Source of the DNA: Aquabacterium fontiphilum
GTDB lineage: Bacteria; Pseudomonadota; Gammaproteobacteria; Burkholderiales; Burkholderiaceae_C
Length of the DNA stretch: 64,000 nucleotides
NCBI RefSeq assembly: GCF_009909205.1
Contig: NZ_JAAAPN010000005.1
Coordinates: forward strand, 1 to 64,000
Reading direction: 5' to 3'
Part shown: piece by piece, positions 33,233-39,301 of the stretch
Position numbering within the stretch: the first letter of the stretch is position 1
Layout: every line of letters begins with the position of its first letter
Position numbers and translations under genes: made by a program
The notes under the pieces: generated by a model
Told to the model about the DNA's origin: nothing
Database searches by the model: none
Seen by the model: the letters and a program-made list of their open reading frames with translations, nothing else

Positions 33233-34315
33233 ATGTTTGCAAAGAAGAAGCTGGTTGCTGCTGCCGCCCTGCTGGCCCTGGCTGGCGCCGCCCAGGCTGA
33301 AGTGAAGCTGTACGGCATGGTCGATATGTCCGTGGGCTCGTTCGAGAACGCGCACGCGAAAGGCGCGTCCGATCGCGTGACGGCCATCGAAAGCGGCAAG
33401 ATGATGACCAGCTACTTTGGCATCGCCGGGTCGGAAGATCTGGGTGGCGGCCTGAAGGCTGAGTTCGTGCTGGAGTCCTTTATTGGTGCTGACGCTGGCA
33501 AAACCTTGGGTAACAACGCTGGTGGTTTCTGGGGCCGCGGTTCGTTCGTCGCCCTGAGCGGTGGCTTTGGTAAGGTGGCCGTGGGTCAGTACGACAACGC
33601 CCTGTTCATCTCGGGGCTGTCTTACAACCCGTTCGGCAGCTCGATGACCTTCTCGCCCACGATGCGTCACTACTACGGTCTGGCCGGCAACTATGGCGCC
33701 GCACTGGGCATCGACACCGGCTGGGTTAACTCGGTGACGTATGAAACGCCGACCGTGGGTGGCTTCATGGCCAGCGCCCAGTACTCGCCCAAGGAGTCCA
33801 AGAACGTTGATGGTTCGTCGAACAGCTACACGCTCGCCGCCTCGTACAACGCTGGCCCGCTCAGCGCGATGCTGACCTATGCCAACATCGGCTACACCGA
33901 TGCAGCTTACGCAGCGTATGTCGCCGACCAGAAAGTGTGGGCCCTTGGTGCCAGCTACGATTTTGGTGTAGCTAAGGCCTTCTTGCAGTACACCGACATC
34001 AAGTCCGATGCGTCCCTCTCCATCAGTGGCACGCCGCCTGTCGCCAGTGTTACCGACGAGGACGGCGCCAAGGCCAAGATCTACCAAGTTGGCGTCAGTG
34101 TCCCCCTGTCCGACAAAGCTTCTGTGATGGCTTCGTATGGTCGCCTGAAGGACAAGGAAGACAACTCTTCCGACAAGGTGCTTTCGATCGGCTACAACTA
34201 CGTGCTGAGCAAGCGTACCGACGTCTACGGTGTCTTCACCAACAACAGCCAGTCGGGTACGGGCAACACCAAGTCCGGCCAGACCTTCGCTGTGGGTCTT
34301 CGCCACAACTTCTGA
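33233..34315 (+). CDS. Outer-membrane porin, second of three
   Basis: A 360-residue porin of the same family. The signal peptide is MFAKKKLVAAAALLALAGAAQA, mature EVKLYGMVDMSV. The conserved strands MMTSYFGIAGSEDLGGGLKAEF and FWGRGSFVALSG are present, and the end is TFAVGLRHNF with terminal Phe. AGGAGA precedes the ATG by 6 bases. It differs from the first porin in the extracellular loops (for example the region near residues 175-200 and 260-285), so a different selectivity is possible. It is separated from the first porin by a terminator and a 210-base gap, so it probably has its own promoter. Confidence 0.95.
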   Translation: MFAKKKLVAAAALLALAGAAQAEVKLYGMVDMSVGSFENAHAKGASDRVTAIESGKMMTSYFGIAGSEDLGGGLKAEFVLESFIGADAGKTLGNNAGGFWGRGSFVALSGGFGKVAVGQYDNALFISGLSYNPFGSSMTFSPTMRHYYGLAGNYGAALGIDTGWVNSVTYETPTVGGFMASAQYSPKESKNVDGSSNSYTLAASYNAGPLSAMLTYANIGYTDAAYAAYVADQKVWALGASYDFGVAKAFLQYTDIKSDASLSISGTPPVASVTDEDGAKAKIYQVGVSVPLSDKASVMASYGRLKDKEDNSSDKVLSIGYNYVLSKRTDVYGVFTNNSQSGTGNTKSGQTFAVGLRHNF

Positions 34316-34369: not shown

Positions 34370-34561
34370 GTTTTGAAGTAAGCAACTGAGTGGCAGAACG
34401 ACGGGAGGCGACGCACCAGAGTGGGGGCAGGAACCCACAGCGCATCGCTCTTCTCGGAGCTCGCACCGCATTCCTCCCCATTCCTGGGCGGCACGGTTTC
34501 TGCATTTTTGTATACCGTTCCCGCATTTGGGGAACGCATTCAACCGTGTCCAGGAGTGTTC

Positions 34562-35632
34562 ATGTCCCTTCAGAAAATACTTGCCCCCGCTGCCTTCGCC
34601 GCTTTGGGCATCACGTCGGGCGCGCATGCCCAGTCTTCGTTGCAGCTCTACGGTGTCATCGACATCGCAGCGGGCTCATTTCAGAACAGCTATCTGAGCA
34701 CCGATGACAACCCCCGTGCCACCAAGGTGGACGGCAACGCCATGATCACCAGCTACTTCGGTATGAGGGGCACGGAAGATCTGGGCGGCGGGCTGAAGGC
34801 CGGTTTTGTGCTCGAATCGTTTCTGCGTCCTGACGTGGGTGCATCCGGCCGCTCGGGAGCAGACGTGTTCTGGGGCCGCAACGCCCATGTCTGGCTGCAG
34901 AGCGATCTGGGCAAGCTGACGGTCGGCCGCCAGGGCACGCTGCTGTTCACCAACACGCTGAGCTATAACCCGCTGGGCAGCGCCTTCGGCCTGTCGCCGG
35001 CCATCCGTCTGACTTTTGGCGCGTTCGGCAACGACAAGACGGACTCCGGCTTCAGCAACACCATCAGCTACAACACGCCGAATCTCGGCGGTTTCACCGG
35101 CGCCGTGCAGGTGCAGTTCGGCGAGGATGCCACCAAAGCCGAGGGCACCACGTACGCACTGAGCGCGGCTTACACGGCCGGACCCTTCTCGATCGGCGGC
35201 GCTTGGCAGAGCGCCAAATCGGCCGAGGCGCCGAAGGCCAACTTCAACGAGGGCGAAAAGCAGACCTTCGGCATGCTGGGCGTGAGCTATGACGCTGGTT
35301 TTGCCAAGCTGTTCGCGCAGTATGGTGAGTTCGGAAACCGTGGTTTCTCGGGCGCCTCGCGCATTGACACCAAGCTGTACACGCTGGGCGCTTCGGTGCC
35401 GGTCACCAAATCGGGTTCGGTGCTCGTGGCCTATGGCGAAAGCCAGGAAGAGGCTGTCGAAGGCGGTGTGACGCCTGACACCGACCACAGCATCTTCACG
35501 CTGGCCTACACCCACAGCCTGTCCAAGCGCACCACGCTGTACGCCGCCTACATGATGGACAAGGAAGATCCGGACGGCGTGAAGTACAAGACGGGCCACA
35601 CCTACATGGTGGGCGTGCGCCACGCGTTCTGA
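34562..35632 (+). CDS. Outer-membrane porin, third of three
   Basis: A 356-residue porin. The ATG at 34562 yields a signal peptide MSLQKILAPAAFAALG... ending AHA before QSSLQLYGVIDIA; the frame is open further upstream, but that part lacks signal features. Conserved strands MITSYFGMRGTEDLGGGLKAGF and FWGRNAHVWLQ are seen, and the end is YMVGVRHAF. It is more divergent from the other two than they are from each other. No clear terminator was found before the convergent metW gene, which ends 16 bases beyond the porin stop. Confidence 0.94.
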   Translation: MSLQKILAPAAFAALGITSGAHAQSSLQLYGVIDIAAGSFQNSYLSTDDNPRATKVDGNAMITSYFGMRGTEDLGGGLKAGFVLESFLRPDVGASGRSGADVFWGRNAHVWLQSDLGKLTVGRQGTLLFTNTLSYNPLGSAFGLSPAIRLTFGAFGNDKTDSGFSNTISYNTPNLGGFTGAVQVQFGEDATKAEGTTYALSAAYTAGPFSIGGAWQSAKSAEAPKANFNEGEKQTFGMLGVSYDAGFAKLFAQYGEFGNRGFSGASRIDTKLYTLGASVPVTKSGSVLVAYGESQEEAVEGGVTPDTDHSIFTLAYTHSLSKRTTLYAAYMMDKEDPDGVKYKTGHTYMVGVRHAF

Positions 35633-35648: not shown

Positions 35649-36233
35649 TCAGCTTCGGTCGAACTGGAAGACGGCGGTGCTGGCCAGCAGGTTGGGCCAG
35701 CGCCGCACCACCTGCCCCTGGTGGGTGCCGAACGACGAGCGGATGCGCAGCCCGTTGCGGCGGGCCAGCACCTCGAAGTCGGCAAAGGTGGCCACGCGGA
35801 TGTTGGGCGTGTCATACCACTGGTAAGGCAGGCTGCGGCTCACGGGCATGCGTCCGCGCAGCACGCTCAGCCGATGCGGCCAGTGGGCAAAGTTGGGGAA
35901 GCTGACGATGCCCATGCGGCCAACGCGGGCCGTCTCGCGCAACATGGCTTCGGTGTTGCGCAGGTGCTGGAGCGTGTCGAGCTGCAGCACCACATCGAAG
36001 CTGTTGTCGTCGAAGATGCTCAGGCCTTCTTCAAGGTTGCGCTGGATGACGTTGACGCCGCGCTCGACGCAGGCGAGCACCTTGCTGTCGTCGATCTCGA
36101 TGCCGTAGCCCGTGCAGCCCCGGTGGTCGCGTAGGTAGGCCAGCAGAGCACCGTTGCCGCAGCCGAGGTCGAGCACGTGCGAGCCGGTGGGCACCAGCTC
36201 GGCGATCACCTGATGCAAGTCGCGGTCGGTCAT
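35649..36233 (-). CDS. metW: Methionine biosynthesis protein MetW
   Basis: A 194-residue SAM-dependent methyltransferase-fold protein that partners MetX in methionine synthesis in many proteobacteria; its exact activity is less certain than its link to MetX. Visible are the SAM-binding [15 protein letters not shown], the acidic residue at the end of strand 2 in GYGIEIDDS, and the family segment [13 protein letters not shown] and [12 protein letters not shown]. The start overlaps the metX stop by 4 bases (ATGA), so the two are translationally coupled and share the upstream riboswitch. Confidence 0.94.
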
Positions 36234-37390
36234 GCGCGCAGCTCCTGTGCGATCCGCTTGAAGTAGGCGCGCACCACGCCGTGGTAGCGGGCGTCATCAA
36301 GCAGGAAGGCGTCGTGCCCGTGGGGCGCGTCGATCTCGGCGTAGCTGACGTCGCGCCGGTTGTCGAGCAGGGCCTTGACGATCTCGCGCGAGCGCGCGGG
36401 CGAGAAGCGCCAGTCGGTGGTGAAGCTCACCACCAGGAAACGGGCCTTGGCCACCGCCAGCGCGGCAGTGAGGTCGCCCCCATGCTCACGTGCGGGGTCG
36501 AAGTAATCCAGCGCTCGGGTGATCAGCAGGTAGGTGTTGGCGTCGAAGTAGTCGCTGAACTTGTCGCCCTGATAGCGCAGGTAGCTCTCCACCTGAAACT
36601 CGATGTCTTGGGTGCTGAAGCCCGGCATGTCGGCCAGTTGCCGGCCCACGCGCTCGCGGCCGAACTTCTCGTCCATCACGTCGTCCGAGAGGTACGTGAT
36701 GTGGCCGATCATGCGCGCCACGCGCAGGCCGCGACGGGGCACCACGCCGTGTTCGTAGAAGTGGCCGTGGTGGAAGTCGGGGTCGGTGACGATGGCGCGG
36801 CGGGCCACTTCGTTGAAGGCGATGTTCTGCGCCGAGAGGTTGGGCGCAGAGGCCGCCACGATGCAGTGGCGCACTCGCTCGGGGTAGAGCAGGGCCCAGG
36901 CCTGGGCCTGCATGCCGCCGAGGCTGCCACCCATGACGGCGGCCAGCGTGTCGATGCCCAGGCGATCGAGCACGCGCGCCTGGGCGTGCACCCAGTCTTC
37001 CACCGTCACCACGGGGAAATCTGCTCCGTAGATGCGGCCGGTGTCCGGGTTGGTGTGCATCGGGCCGGTCGAGCCAAAGCAGGAGCCGGGGTTGTTGATG
37101 CAGATGACGAAGAAGCGATCGGTGTCCAACGGCTTGCCGGGGCCGATCATGTTGTCCCACCAGCCCTGGCTGCGGGGCAGCGGCTCGCCGTCGTCGCCCG
37201 CGTGCAGGCCCGCGGCATGGTGCGAGGCGTTGAGCGCGTGGCACACCAGCACGGCATTGCTGCGGTCGGCATTGAGCCGGCCATAGGTCTCGTACATGAG
37301 GGTGTAGTCGCGCAGCACCGCACCGCTTTGCAGCGACAGCGGCGTGCCGAAGTGCATGGAGGCTGGGGTGACAACCCCGAGGGAGGACAT
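36230..37390 (-). CDS. metX: Homoserine O-acyltransferase MetX
   Basis: Activates homoserine with an acyl group from CoA in the first committed step of methionine synthesis. The 386-residue alpha/beta hydrolase-fold enzyme has the nucleophile elbow GGSLGGMQ and a late His-containing triad segment (DAPHGHDAF). Motifs [24 protein letters not shown] and [12 protein letters not shown] are typical of MetX; whether it uses acetyl- or succinyl-CoA is not safely told from the sequence. ATG 37390 is chosen because the earlier in-frame ATG at 37426 lies inside the leader terminator hairpin. No clear ribosome site is seen. Confidence 0.93.
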
Positions 37391-37410: not shown

Positions 37411-37445
37411 TAAAAACGCCGGCCACTGTGACAGGGGGCCGGCGT
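37411..37445 (-). terminator. Leader terminator between riboswitch and metX
   Basis: On the minus strand a perfect 9-bp GC-rich stem ACGCCGGCC/GGCCGGCGT with a 12-base loop is followed by TTTTTATTT. It lies 6 bases after the SAM-II aptamer and 25 bases before the metX ATG. No other minus-strand gene lies upstream, so it must act within the metX leader. Confidence 0.85.
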
Positions 37446-37451
37446 GCAGCG

Positions 37452-37501
37452 CCCTTTTAGCAGCATTTCTTGAGCGCCCGCAAGCCGGACAAATCGGCGC
37501 T
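37452..37501 (-). promoter_or_regulatory. SAM-II riboswitch of metXW
   Basis: The minus-strand leader of metX carries a compact SAM-II aptamer. P1 is formed by AGCGCC and GGCGCT. The loop between them reads GATTTGTCCGGCTTGCG, which agrees with the known SAM-II loop pattern GAUUU-N2-CCG-N2-UUGC. The 3' part AAATGCTGCTAAAAGGG contains the hallmark GCUAAAA used to bind S-adenosylmethionine. One pair of the second pseudoknot helix appears to be a U-U mismatch by my alignment. A terminator follows at once, so transcriptional control by SAM is likely; this reading is inferred, the class assignment rests on sequence pattern and position. Confidence 0.9.
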
Positions 37502-37645
37502 ATGGGCGAAGTGTAGCGCCAAACCGCAGGCTCAGCCACCTGTCTCGAATGTCACGATGTAGCGGATCTTTCCCGCCTTGCTGTCTTGACCGAGGCCCGC
37601 GCCCTGTCGCTACGATCGTCTGGCGCATAACAAGGAGGCGGTCGC

Positions 37646-39301
37646 ATGCCCCGCTGGTTGATCCGACTCAATGAGCACGTGCCGATCCGGTACGGTATCT
37701 GGTTCTTTGCCTGGCTGGGCTTTGTGGGCTGCGCCGGGCTCGCATTGGTCTCGGGCGGGGGAGGGGCGAGCATTGCCGCTGTGTTGCTTGGCGGCCTGGT
37801 GTTGCTCGGCTACAGCGACATGCGACAGCGCAGCCGCTCGGTCTTGCGCAACTACCCGGTGATCGGCCACCTGCGTTACCTGCTGGAGTTCATCCGGCCG
37901 GAGTTGCGCCAGTACTTCATCGAAAGCGATTCCGAGGCGGCGCCGTTCTCGCGGCAACAGCGCTCGCTGGTCTACCAGCGCGCCAAGGGTGAGCCGGATA
38001 AGCGCCCCTTCGGCACGCACAAGGATGTCTCGGCTTCCGGCTATGAGTGGATCAGCCACTCGGTGGCGCCGACCGTGCTGCCCAGTCATGACTTCCGCAT
38101 CCTGATCGGCGGCGGTGGCACCAGTTGCGCGCAGCCGTATGACGCGAGCCTGTTCAACATTTCGGCCATGAGCTTCGGTGCACTGAGCGCCCACGCCGTG
38201 CTGGCGCTCAATGGCGGCGCGCGCAAGGGCCGTTTTGCGCACGACACGGGTGAGGGCTCGATCAGCCGCTACCACCGCGAGCCTGGAGGCGATCTGATCT
38301 GGGAGATCGGCTCAGGCTACTTCGGCTGCCGCACGGCGGAGGGCGGGTTCGATCCGGATTGCTTTGCCGCGAACGCCCGTCTGCCTCAGGTGAAGATGAT
38401 CGAGCTCAAGCTCAGTCAGGGTGCCAAGCCCGGGCACGGCGGGGTGCTGCCGGGGCCGAAGGTGACGCCCGAGATCGCCGAGGCGCGCGGCGTGATGGTG
38501 GGGCAGGATTGCGTGTCTCCGGCGACGCACAGCGCGTTTCAGACGCCGCTGGAGATGATGGCCTTCATCGAGCGGCTTCGCGCGCTGTCAGGTGGCAAGC
38601 CGGTGGGCTTCAAGTTTTGCGTGGGCCACGTGTGGGAGTGGTTCGCCATGGCCAAGGCCATGCGTGAAACCGGCATCTGGCCGGATTTCATCGTGGTCGA
38701 CGGAGCGGAAGGCGGCACGGGCGCAGCACCGGTGGAGTTCATCGACCACGTAGGCGCACCGTTGCAGGAAGGGCTCCTGCTGGTGCACAACACGCTGGTG
38801 GGCCTGGGTGAGCGCCATCGCGTGAAACTGGGTTGCGCGGGCAAGGTGGTCAGTGCCTTCGACATCGCTCGCATGATGGCGTTGGGGGCCGACTGGTGCA
38901 ATTCGGCGCGCGGTTTCATGTTTGCGCTGGGCTGCATCCAGGCGCAGAGTTGCCACACCGGACATTGCCCCACAGGCGTGGCCACGCAGGATCCGCTGCG
39001 CCAGCGGGCGCTGGTGGTGCCGGACAAGGCCGAGCGGGTGTACCGGTTCCACCAGAACACGCTGCATGCGCTCAAGGAGCTGGTTCAGGCGGCGGGGCTG
39101 ACCCATCCCAACCAGATCACAGGGGATCACATCCTGCGGCGCGTGTCGGATTTCGAGGTGCGCCGGCTGTCGAACTTGCTGCCTTACCTGCAGCACGGCG
39201 AACTGTTGGCGGCCGAGCGCGGCGAGGTGCCGTGGCGGCAACTTGGTTTCGAGCAGTACTGGATGCGCGCTCGAGCCGACTCGTTCGCGCTGCGCGACTG
39301 A
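37646..39301 (+). CDS. FMN-binding glutamate synthase-like protein, membrane-anchored
   Basis: A 551-residue protein built on the FMN/Fe-S domain of glutamate synthase, without the glutaminase half. Two hydrophobic segments at the N-terminus (about 19-37 and 41-56) suggest an inner-membrane anchor. The FMN-domain landmarks are FNISAMSFGALSAHAV, GAKPGHGGVLPG, VVDGAEGGTGAAPVEF and ADWCNSARGFMFALGC. The cysteine cluster C-x-x-x-x-x-C-x-x-x-x-C (GCIQAQSCHTGHCPTG) binds an iron-sulfur cluster. The natural substrate of this stand-alone family is not established. A GGAGG site precedes the ATG. It is divergent from metX. Confidence 0.9.
   Translation: MPRWLIRLNEHVPIRYGIWFFAWLGFVGCAGLALVSGGGGASIAAVLLGGLVLLGYSDMRQRSRSVLRNYPVIGHLRYLLEFIRPELRQYFIESDSEAAPFSRQQRSLVYQRAKGEPDKRPFGTHKDVSASGYEWISHSVAPTVLPSHDFRILIGGGGTSCAQPYDASLFNISAMSFGALSAHAVLALNGGARKGRFAHDTGEGSISRYHREPGGDLIWEIGSGYFGCRTAEGGFDPDCFAANARLPQVKMIELKLSQGAKPGHGGVLPGPKVTPEIAEARGVMVGQDCVSPATHSAFQTPLEMMAFIERLRALSGGKPVGFKFCVGHVWEWFAMAKAMRETGIWPDFIVVDGAEGGTGAAPVEFIDHVGAPLQEGLLLVHNTLVGLGERHRVKLGCAGKVVSAFDIARMMALGADWCNSARGFMFALGCIQAQSCHTGHCPTGVATQDPLRQRALVVPDKAERVYRFHQNTLHALKELVQAAGLTHPNQITGDHILRRVSDFEVRRLSNLLPYLQHGELLAAERGEVPWRQLGFEQYWMRARADSFALRD

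Follow-up and report, generated by a model that had tools for sequence, protein, structure and literature searches.

The leader of metX and metW in Aquabacterium fontiphilum carries a SAM-II riboswitch, which we predict with considerable confidence to be a SAM-dependent OFF switch acting by transcription attenuation of metX-metW. The computational support consists of an aptamer match, conservation, partial covariation, a terminator and a mutually exclusive fold. The element lies in the window, that is, the whole stretch of 64,000 nucleotides analyzed here. A transcriptional SAM-OFF switch is the best reading because an antiterminator made from P1 and P2 strands is the predicted nascent fold until the 3' arm of the terminator hairpin has been transcribed.

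Organization of the metX-metW leader

On the minus strand, the leader consists, in order, of the hexamer TACACT (37515 to 37510), the RF00521 match, a 9-bp hairpin with a U-tract (37445 to 37408), and the metX ATG at 37390 (Table 1). The letters of the P1 arms, loop and tail, which the earlier note had fitted to the SAM-II pattern, were confirmed. The tail reads AAATGCTGCTAAAAGGG, with its last base at 37452 on the minus strand, and six bases separate it from the hairpin. The two genes behind the hairpin were identified as metX and metW by their protein family models, as that note had proposed, and the MetX protein showed up to 88% identity with its closest named relatives, which belong to Aquabacterium (Burkholderiales). 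The note had also held that no upstream minus-strand gene would need the terminator. Indeed, the upstream neighbor is divergent and lies on the plus strand, and the terminator is thus not needed for it. By eye, no good Shine-Dalgarno sequence was found directly ahead of the metX start. As a separate observation, two adjacent plus-strand open reading frames (33233 to 34315 and 34421 to 35632), porin-like by eye, are directed towards metXW.

Table 1. Features of the metX-metW leader and adjacent genes in the window
Feature	Positions	Strand	Evidence
-10-like hexamer TACACT	37510..37515	-	Sequence; TANNNT recurrence upstream of P1
RF00521 SAM_alpha (SAM-II aptamer) match, 75 bases	37436..37510	-	34.6 bits
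P1 5' arm AGCGCC	37496..37501	-	Sequence; outermost pair covaries
Loop 1 conserved GATTTG	37490..37495	-	Sequence, alignment; TCCGG follows
Proposed P2b 5' strand GUCC (pseudoknot), partner 37454-37451	37487..37490	-	Counts for pairs 1 and 2; pairs 3 and 4 unsupported
Conserved CTTGC	37480..37484	-	Alignment A1
P1 3' arm GGCGCT	37473..37478	-	Sequence, pair counts
Tail GCTAAAAGGGC carrying P2 3' strand	37451..37461	-	One base below the length in most relatives
Terminator hairpin ACGCCGGCC(12-nt loop)GGCCGGCGT, 9-bp stem	37416..37445	-	T-rich/U-tract to 37408; folding energy
Predicted antiterminator, 37488-37472 with 37454-37439	37439..37488	-	Minimum-free-energy nascent-RNA folds
metX, homoserine O-succinyltransferase type	36230..37390	-	MetX_succinyl NF047916, 658.8 bits (cut-off 560)
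metW	35649..36233	-	TIGR02081, 244.8 bits (cut-off 189.5)
Divergent upstream neighbor, Glu_synthase-domain ORF	37646-39301	+	Domain match

The aptamer matches RF00521 and has a short tail

The SAM-II covariance-model search, set beforehand as the test, returned a match in a 301-base search (E = 2.1e-6), though its 34.6 bits were 1.4 bits short of the gathering cut-off of 36. Across the whole window there was no match at the gathering score, which is an operational threshold of Rfam and not a biological feature. In the 3,654,339-base genome, the metX leader was the sole match at an E value of 0.001 or better (E = 6.0e-6). The conserved SAM-II blocks GAUUU, CUUGC and GCUAAA were all present, together with a P1 helix of roughly 6 bp at the base of the conserved loop, and the aptamer lies ahead of the methionine genes metX and metW. 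The proposed P2a helix joins GC (37481-37480) to GC (37461-37460), and both are invariant across alignment A1. The leader thus resembles RF00521 members in P1, the GAUUUG, the CUUGC, the GCUAAA tail, the pseudoknot, the methionine gene, the promoter by P1 and the terminator past P2, but differs from typical members in its score just under the cut-off, its tail one base shorter and its beta-proteobacterial host. Other RNA families at the metX leader (Esr41, anti-hemB, mir-1994 and Bp2_287) all scored far below their own cut-offs.

The shortening lies in the spacer from GCTAAA to GGG, which is GCTAAAAGGG in the window and GCTAAAGAGGG in most relatives. Two of the 65 unique terminator-type aptamers, those of the window and of L070, have GCTAAAAGG; L071 carries GCTAAGAGG. 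The missing base of the usual GCUAAAGA spacer may weaken the predicted binding of SAM by the window RNA.

The element is conserved among relatives and partly covaries

RF00521 matched 38 of the 61 relatives at an E value of 0.001 or better, and in 25 of 61 the match was above its cut-off; none of 14 control genomes had a match. We also searched with R1, a model of 21 beta-proteobacterial aptamers taken from the genomes searched. Since the aptamer of the window was among the 21, its R1 score does not count as independent evidence, whereas its RF00521 score does. R1 matched 54 of 61 relatives and 36 of the 37 genus members, counts that include metK-type matches, and the comparison with RF00521 favors R1, which was trained on sequences from the same genomes and also catches the metK type. 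With this reservation, the Rfam model and its cut-off miss much of the beta-proteobacterial SAM-II (38/61 and 25/61 against 54/61). Eight members of the genus missed by RF00521 (L062-L069) have a metX aptamer with a 37- to 47-nt insertion in loop 1, located between GATTTG and the CUUGC-like block. Across the order, 217 of 300 genomes had R1 matches, metK-type matches again being counted in. At named metX loci, R1 matched upstream of metX in 71 of 80 cases, four of them weak (L202, L206, L215 and L216); no match was found at the other nine within the searched stretch of up to 1.5 kb upstream. Eight of these nine loci are from Massilia (L200, L203, L204, L207, L208, L213, L217 and L218).

Gene and terminator counts, as well as the duplex, base-pair, shuffle and nascent-pairing tests, drew on 99 matches from 96 sources, with L097 and L099 (weak and motif-unlike by eye) and L031, L032 and L053 (repeated places) left out. 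Because many loci come from one genus, these counts overstate the independent support. Base pairs were counted in the 65 unique non-metK matches with a terminator-like site and GATTT, and 70 leaders selected in the same way entered the nascent-pairing test. The outer P1 pair covaries, being paired in 59 of 65 aptamers against 33.2 expected (A-U 38, C-G 11, U-G 7, U-A 2 and G-C 1), and the inner P1 pairs are nearly invariant. In P2b, pair 1 was formed in 63 of 65 (63.0 expected) and pair 2 covaries, with 53 of 65 paired against 37.6 expected (C-G 28, U-A 20, U-G 2, A-U 2 and G-C 1). Pairs 3 and 4 had no covariation support (30 and 28 of 65, against 36.5 and 25.9 expected).

Of 135 unique leaders, both subtypes taken together, 105 have a TANNNT hexamer 5 to 11 nt ahead of P1, compared with 2 of 135 at a control distance of 25 to 31 nt; this count drew on further matches beyond the 99. 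The placement of the hexamer indicates that transcription very probably starts at P1. In the window, TACACT is contained in TTTGGCGCTACACT (37523 to 37510, minus strand), and conservation of this stretch extends beyond the -10 hexamer: it is exact in 14 of the 135 leaders, and GGCGCTACACT is found in 19. The stretch may be bound by a regulator or may extend the promoter.

Tandem SAM-II-like copies were seen at L021 (1501-1758), L037, L039, L050, L077, L103, L123, L125, L126 and L131-L133. The genes further down encode small unknown proteins, a MatE transporter (L077 and L126) and an AAA_5 ATPase (L133), and single copies at L110 and L134 likewise precede an AAA_5 ATPase. Tandem SAM-II arrangements have been published, with 44 examples given in the relevant part of PMC9481103, some of them with mixed platforms.

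The terminator and the predicted antiterminator

The perfect 9-bp hairpin and T run that the earlier note had read as a terminator has a folding energy of -20.3 kcal/mol (z = -3.43), and only 1 of 200 shuffles folds as well. A simple terminator scanner, which permits loops of 3 to 8 only, did not list this hairpin. In the 99 matches, a terminator-like site followed the aptamer in 47 of 48 metX, 18 of 18 metZ and 3 of 3 metH leaders, in 3 of 3 leaders of a small unknown gene, in 5 of 8 matches without gene assignment and in 2 of 19 metK leaders; L002 is without a gene or terminator in these counts because its contig ends. Of the non-metK leaders, 79 had 150 nt or more of downstream sequence, and 76 of these carried the site, compared with 97 of 395 shuffles, a pass rate that marks the detector as lax. 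Among the 71 named metX loci with an aptamer, 65 had a terminator-like site. Aquabacterium lacunae is among the six without one (L023, L181, L182, L184, L188 and L210), as are four loci whose titles name Burkholderiales or Rubrivivax; these leaders imply either another expression platform or a lost one.

Nascent RNA folds of the window leader were calculated by a procedure that ignores pseudoknots, SAM and kinetics. When the RNA ended at 37451, the fold included P1. At 37445, the best pseudoknot-free fold paired the P1 5' arm with the tail in place of P1, and the same pairing, again with P1 absent, returned with the completed terminator. For nascent ends from 37437 to 37425 (also given as 37440 to 37425), the minimum-free-energy fold was the antiterminator of Table 1, with energies of -20.6 to -25.1 kcal/mol, the latter at 37425, where most pair probabilities were 0.93 to 0.97. 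This structure is built from P1 and P2 strands and is incompatible with P1, with P2a and P2b, and with half of the terminator stem. When the RNA ended at 37416, the terminator fold won (-38.9 kcal/mol). The whole window leader was no more stable than its shuffles (z = -0.42).

Similar pairing was found in the group. Across 70 terminator-type leaders, upstream pairing of the terminator's 5' arm had a mean probability exceeding 0.5 in 26 of the 30 from the genus and in 25 of the 40 others, and against 20 shuffles each, 18 of 70 leaders were at or below 0.05. In a simple duplex test between tail and terminator, from which L086 was omitted for its weak-looking hairpin, 18 of 65 leaders were at or below 0.05. 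The window was unremarkable in both tests: its arm probability was 0.60 against a shuffle mean of 0.40, with 15% of 20 shuffles reaching it, and 32% of 100 shuffles did as well as its tail/terminator duplex. The antiterminator of the window and of L070 sets L1 and CUUGC against the terminator arm, while most others use the tail; this use of L1/CUUGC in the predicted fold suggests why the duplex test was unremarkable for the window. In these models, the attenuation mechanism is supported for the group and plausible for the window.

Under the proposed mechanism, transcription would start at about the first base of P1, and the aptamer, with P1 and the pseudoknot P2, would be complete once RNA polymerase reaches 37451. 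Binding of SAM would lock P1 and P2, so that no antiterminator would form, the terminator (37445-37416) would fold, and transcription would end. Without SAM, the segment comprising L1, CUUGC and the P1 3' strand would pair with the tail and the first half of the terminator, and with the antiterminator formed, metXW would be transcribed.

Alternative explanations

Control could instead act on translation or at both levels. The purine-rich P2 3' strand AAAAGGG would then act at a distance as the Shine-Dalgarno sequence of the metX AUG, which lies about 62 nt further on, and the sole role of the terminator would be to limit read-through at any SAM level. Such an arrangement would be close to metA of Sinorhizobium meliloti, where the relevant part of PMC9373788 places the Shine-Dalgarno sequence inside a SAM-II riboswitch that is accompanied by a terminator, and it would agree with the poor Shine-Dalgarno context ahead of 37390. 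A terminator is, however, found repeatedly in the order, with a 5' arm inclined to pair with the tail of the aptamer, and we regard translational or dual control as rather unlikely.

The lost base could also mark a decayed aptamer, with a constitutive terminator that keeps metXW expression low or yields a short RNA. Two findings point in this direction, the RF00521 score below the cut-off and the shorter GCUAAAAGGG tail that the window shares with L070, but the remaining conserved blocks are intact, L070 has the same shortening amid conserved surroundings and L071 a similar one, and by inspection the 7-nt spacer still permits four P2b pairs; decay is accordingly judged very improbable. To a coincidental match next to an ordinary terminator we attach hardly any weight. 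The window has no match at the curated cut-off, yet the only genome-wide RF00521 match sits ahead of metX, R1 matches nearly every genome of the genus, the upstream neighbor is divergent, and covariation contradicts coincidence as well; a chance RF00521 match was rejected on the conservation among relatives and across the order. The SAM-dependent transcription switch is therefore retained as the preferred reading.

Relation to known SAM-II systems

The earlier note had presented the coupling of a SAM-II aptamer to termination in Burkholderiales as unusual. The aptamer and terminator before metXW stood, given the model match, partial covariation, conservation and nascent folds; the claim of unusualness did not, since such coupling was reported or predicted for beta-proteobacteria in 2005, 2007 and 2014. 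The passages of PMC1273637 on SAM-II describe putative terminators in many members, with one Bordetella example, and those of PMC2258182 single out SAM-II as apparently mostly terminator-coupled in alpha- and beta-Proteobacteria. According to the corresponding part of Leyn 2014 (PMC4239095), a pseudoknotted RNA and a terminator precede metXW/metZ in beta-proteobacteria; it was named the metXZ element and presented as new, SAM_alpha being said there to occur only in Rhizobiales and Rhodobacterales. The metXZ element was reported in 10 of 11 Comamonadaceae, with regions 1-4 and 2-6 pairing as a pseudoknot. The window leader likewise combines a pseudoknotted RNA and a terminator before metXW in a beta-proteobacterium, and from description, genes and taxa as far as that part of the paper gives them, the metXZ element and SAM-II are apparently one RNA, which clarifies the naming and is, with the members that Rfam misses, the wider gain of the analysis. 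No paper besides Leyn 2014 was found in the open-access literature to bring the two names together. Terminator-coupled SAM-II in this group is thus not a new interpretation, and the window element is ordinary for the group.

The order of aptamer and terminator in the window is also that of S. meliloti metZ and metA in the passages of PMC9373788. For metZ, these describe a transcript of about 100 nt whose size fits termination and whose level rises under high SAM. In metA, the Shine-Dalgarno sequence lies within the riboswitch, an AUG 74 nt downstream is used, and the terminator lowers expression in both media. Unlike the host of the window, S. meliloti is an alphaproteobacterium, and its metA control was reported there as translational at a distance.

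A second SAM-II-like element before metK

The genome of the window holds, outside the window, a SAM-II-like element before metK (contig C1:125849-125923; L061:1850-1924, L101) with a GAGUUA core, no terminator-like site and no Rfam match. Two or more R1 matches were found in 34 of 37 genus genomes, and in the 13 of these in which the weaker match was examined, it always lay before metK; G004 has three R1 matches, one further match (L075) being before metZ. A model of 16 metK leaders, R2, had matches in 213 of the 300 order genomes, a figure in which cross-matching to metX-type elements is counted, and 23 of its best 30 places were before metK. The metK leaders examined span seven Burkholderiales families, including that of the window. 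Across the class, R2 matched 101 of 229 genomes; of eight new loci at this level (L131-L138), one lay before metK, in the window's own family, and two before metZ.

In 37 unique metK leaders, the core was GAGUUA in 31, GAUUUA in 3, GUGUUA in 2 and GAUUUG in 1 (L055, of the terminator type). A terminator-like site between tail and start codon was present in 4 of 37 (L055, L086 (weak), L116 and L120). In L116 and L120, from one family, a U-run comes directly after the hairpin that pairs with the P2 tail, so that this hairpin could be a terminator competing with P2 and giving the opposite logic. Positions 1 to 4 of P2b were paired in 37, 36, 35 and 20 of 37 leaders, compared with 37.0, 34.1, 28.6 and 16.5 after partner shuffling, and the pairing total was reached by 1 of 10,000 shuffles in a test that relatedness inflates. 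With L055 omitted, 19 of 36 metK leaders had a tail able to pair with a downstream stretch at or below 0.05 against shuffles, 7 of them among the 24 leaders from outside the genus. Pairing of the sequence that follows P2 with the Shine-Dalgarno region reached this level in 10 of 36, namely in 8 of the 24 leaders from other genera and in 2 of the 12 from the genus itself.

The Rfam SAM-II model gave no match in 20 metK loci at E values up to 1 or in L061 and L072 at E values up to 0.1, and no Rfam SAM-riboswitch family matched the tested metK leaders. No description of the metK variant was found in the open-access literature, preprints, supplementary files and alignments apart; it is absent from the metK passages of PMC2864571, PMC9481103, PMC7736828, PMC10853860, PMC12121620 and PMC4239095. 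The SAM/SAH riboswitch of Rhodobacterales, which the relevant passage of PMC2864571 places immediately upstream of metK, shares this position with the metK variant but belongs to a different RNA family. RF01057 SAH riboswitches were observed downstream of metK on the metK strand at L128 (2838-2925, plus) and L129 (194-276, minus).

This genome and many Burkholderiales thus probably have two SAM-II subtypes with differing expression platforms: the known terminator-coupled form at metX/metZ and, at metK, a form that is undescribed. The latter shares the architecture of SAM-II and in most leaders has a GAGUUA core; its pseudoknot covaries, its tail is GCUAAAGCGUUC or GCGUC, and a terminator is usually absent. 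Its sequences show signs of translation control, in which a downstream hairpin would be in competition with the P2 3' strand and the Shine-Dalgarno region could be masked; in a bolder version, the changed core may alter ligand preference. The metK variant is an interesting by-product, and the window element, of a known kind, adds one more SAM-II leader with a concrete and testable antiterminator model. If the two-subtype reading is true, entry into the pathway would be under transcriptional control and SAM synthetase under translational control.
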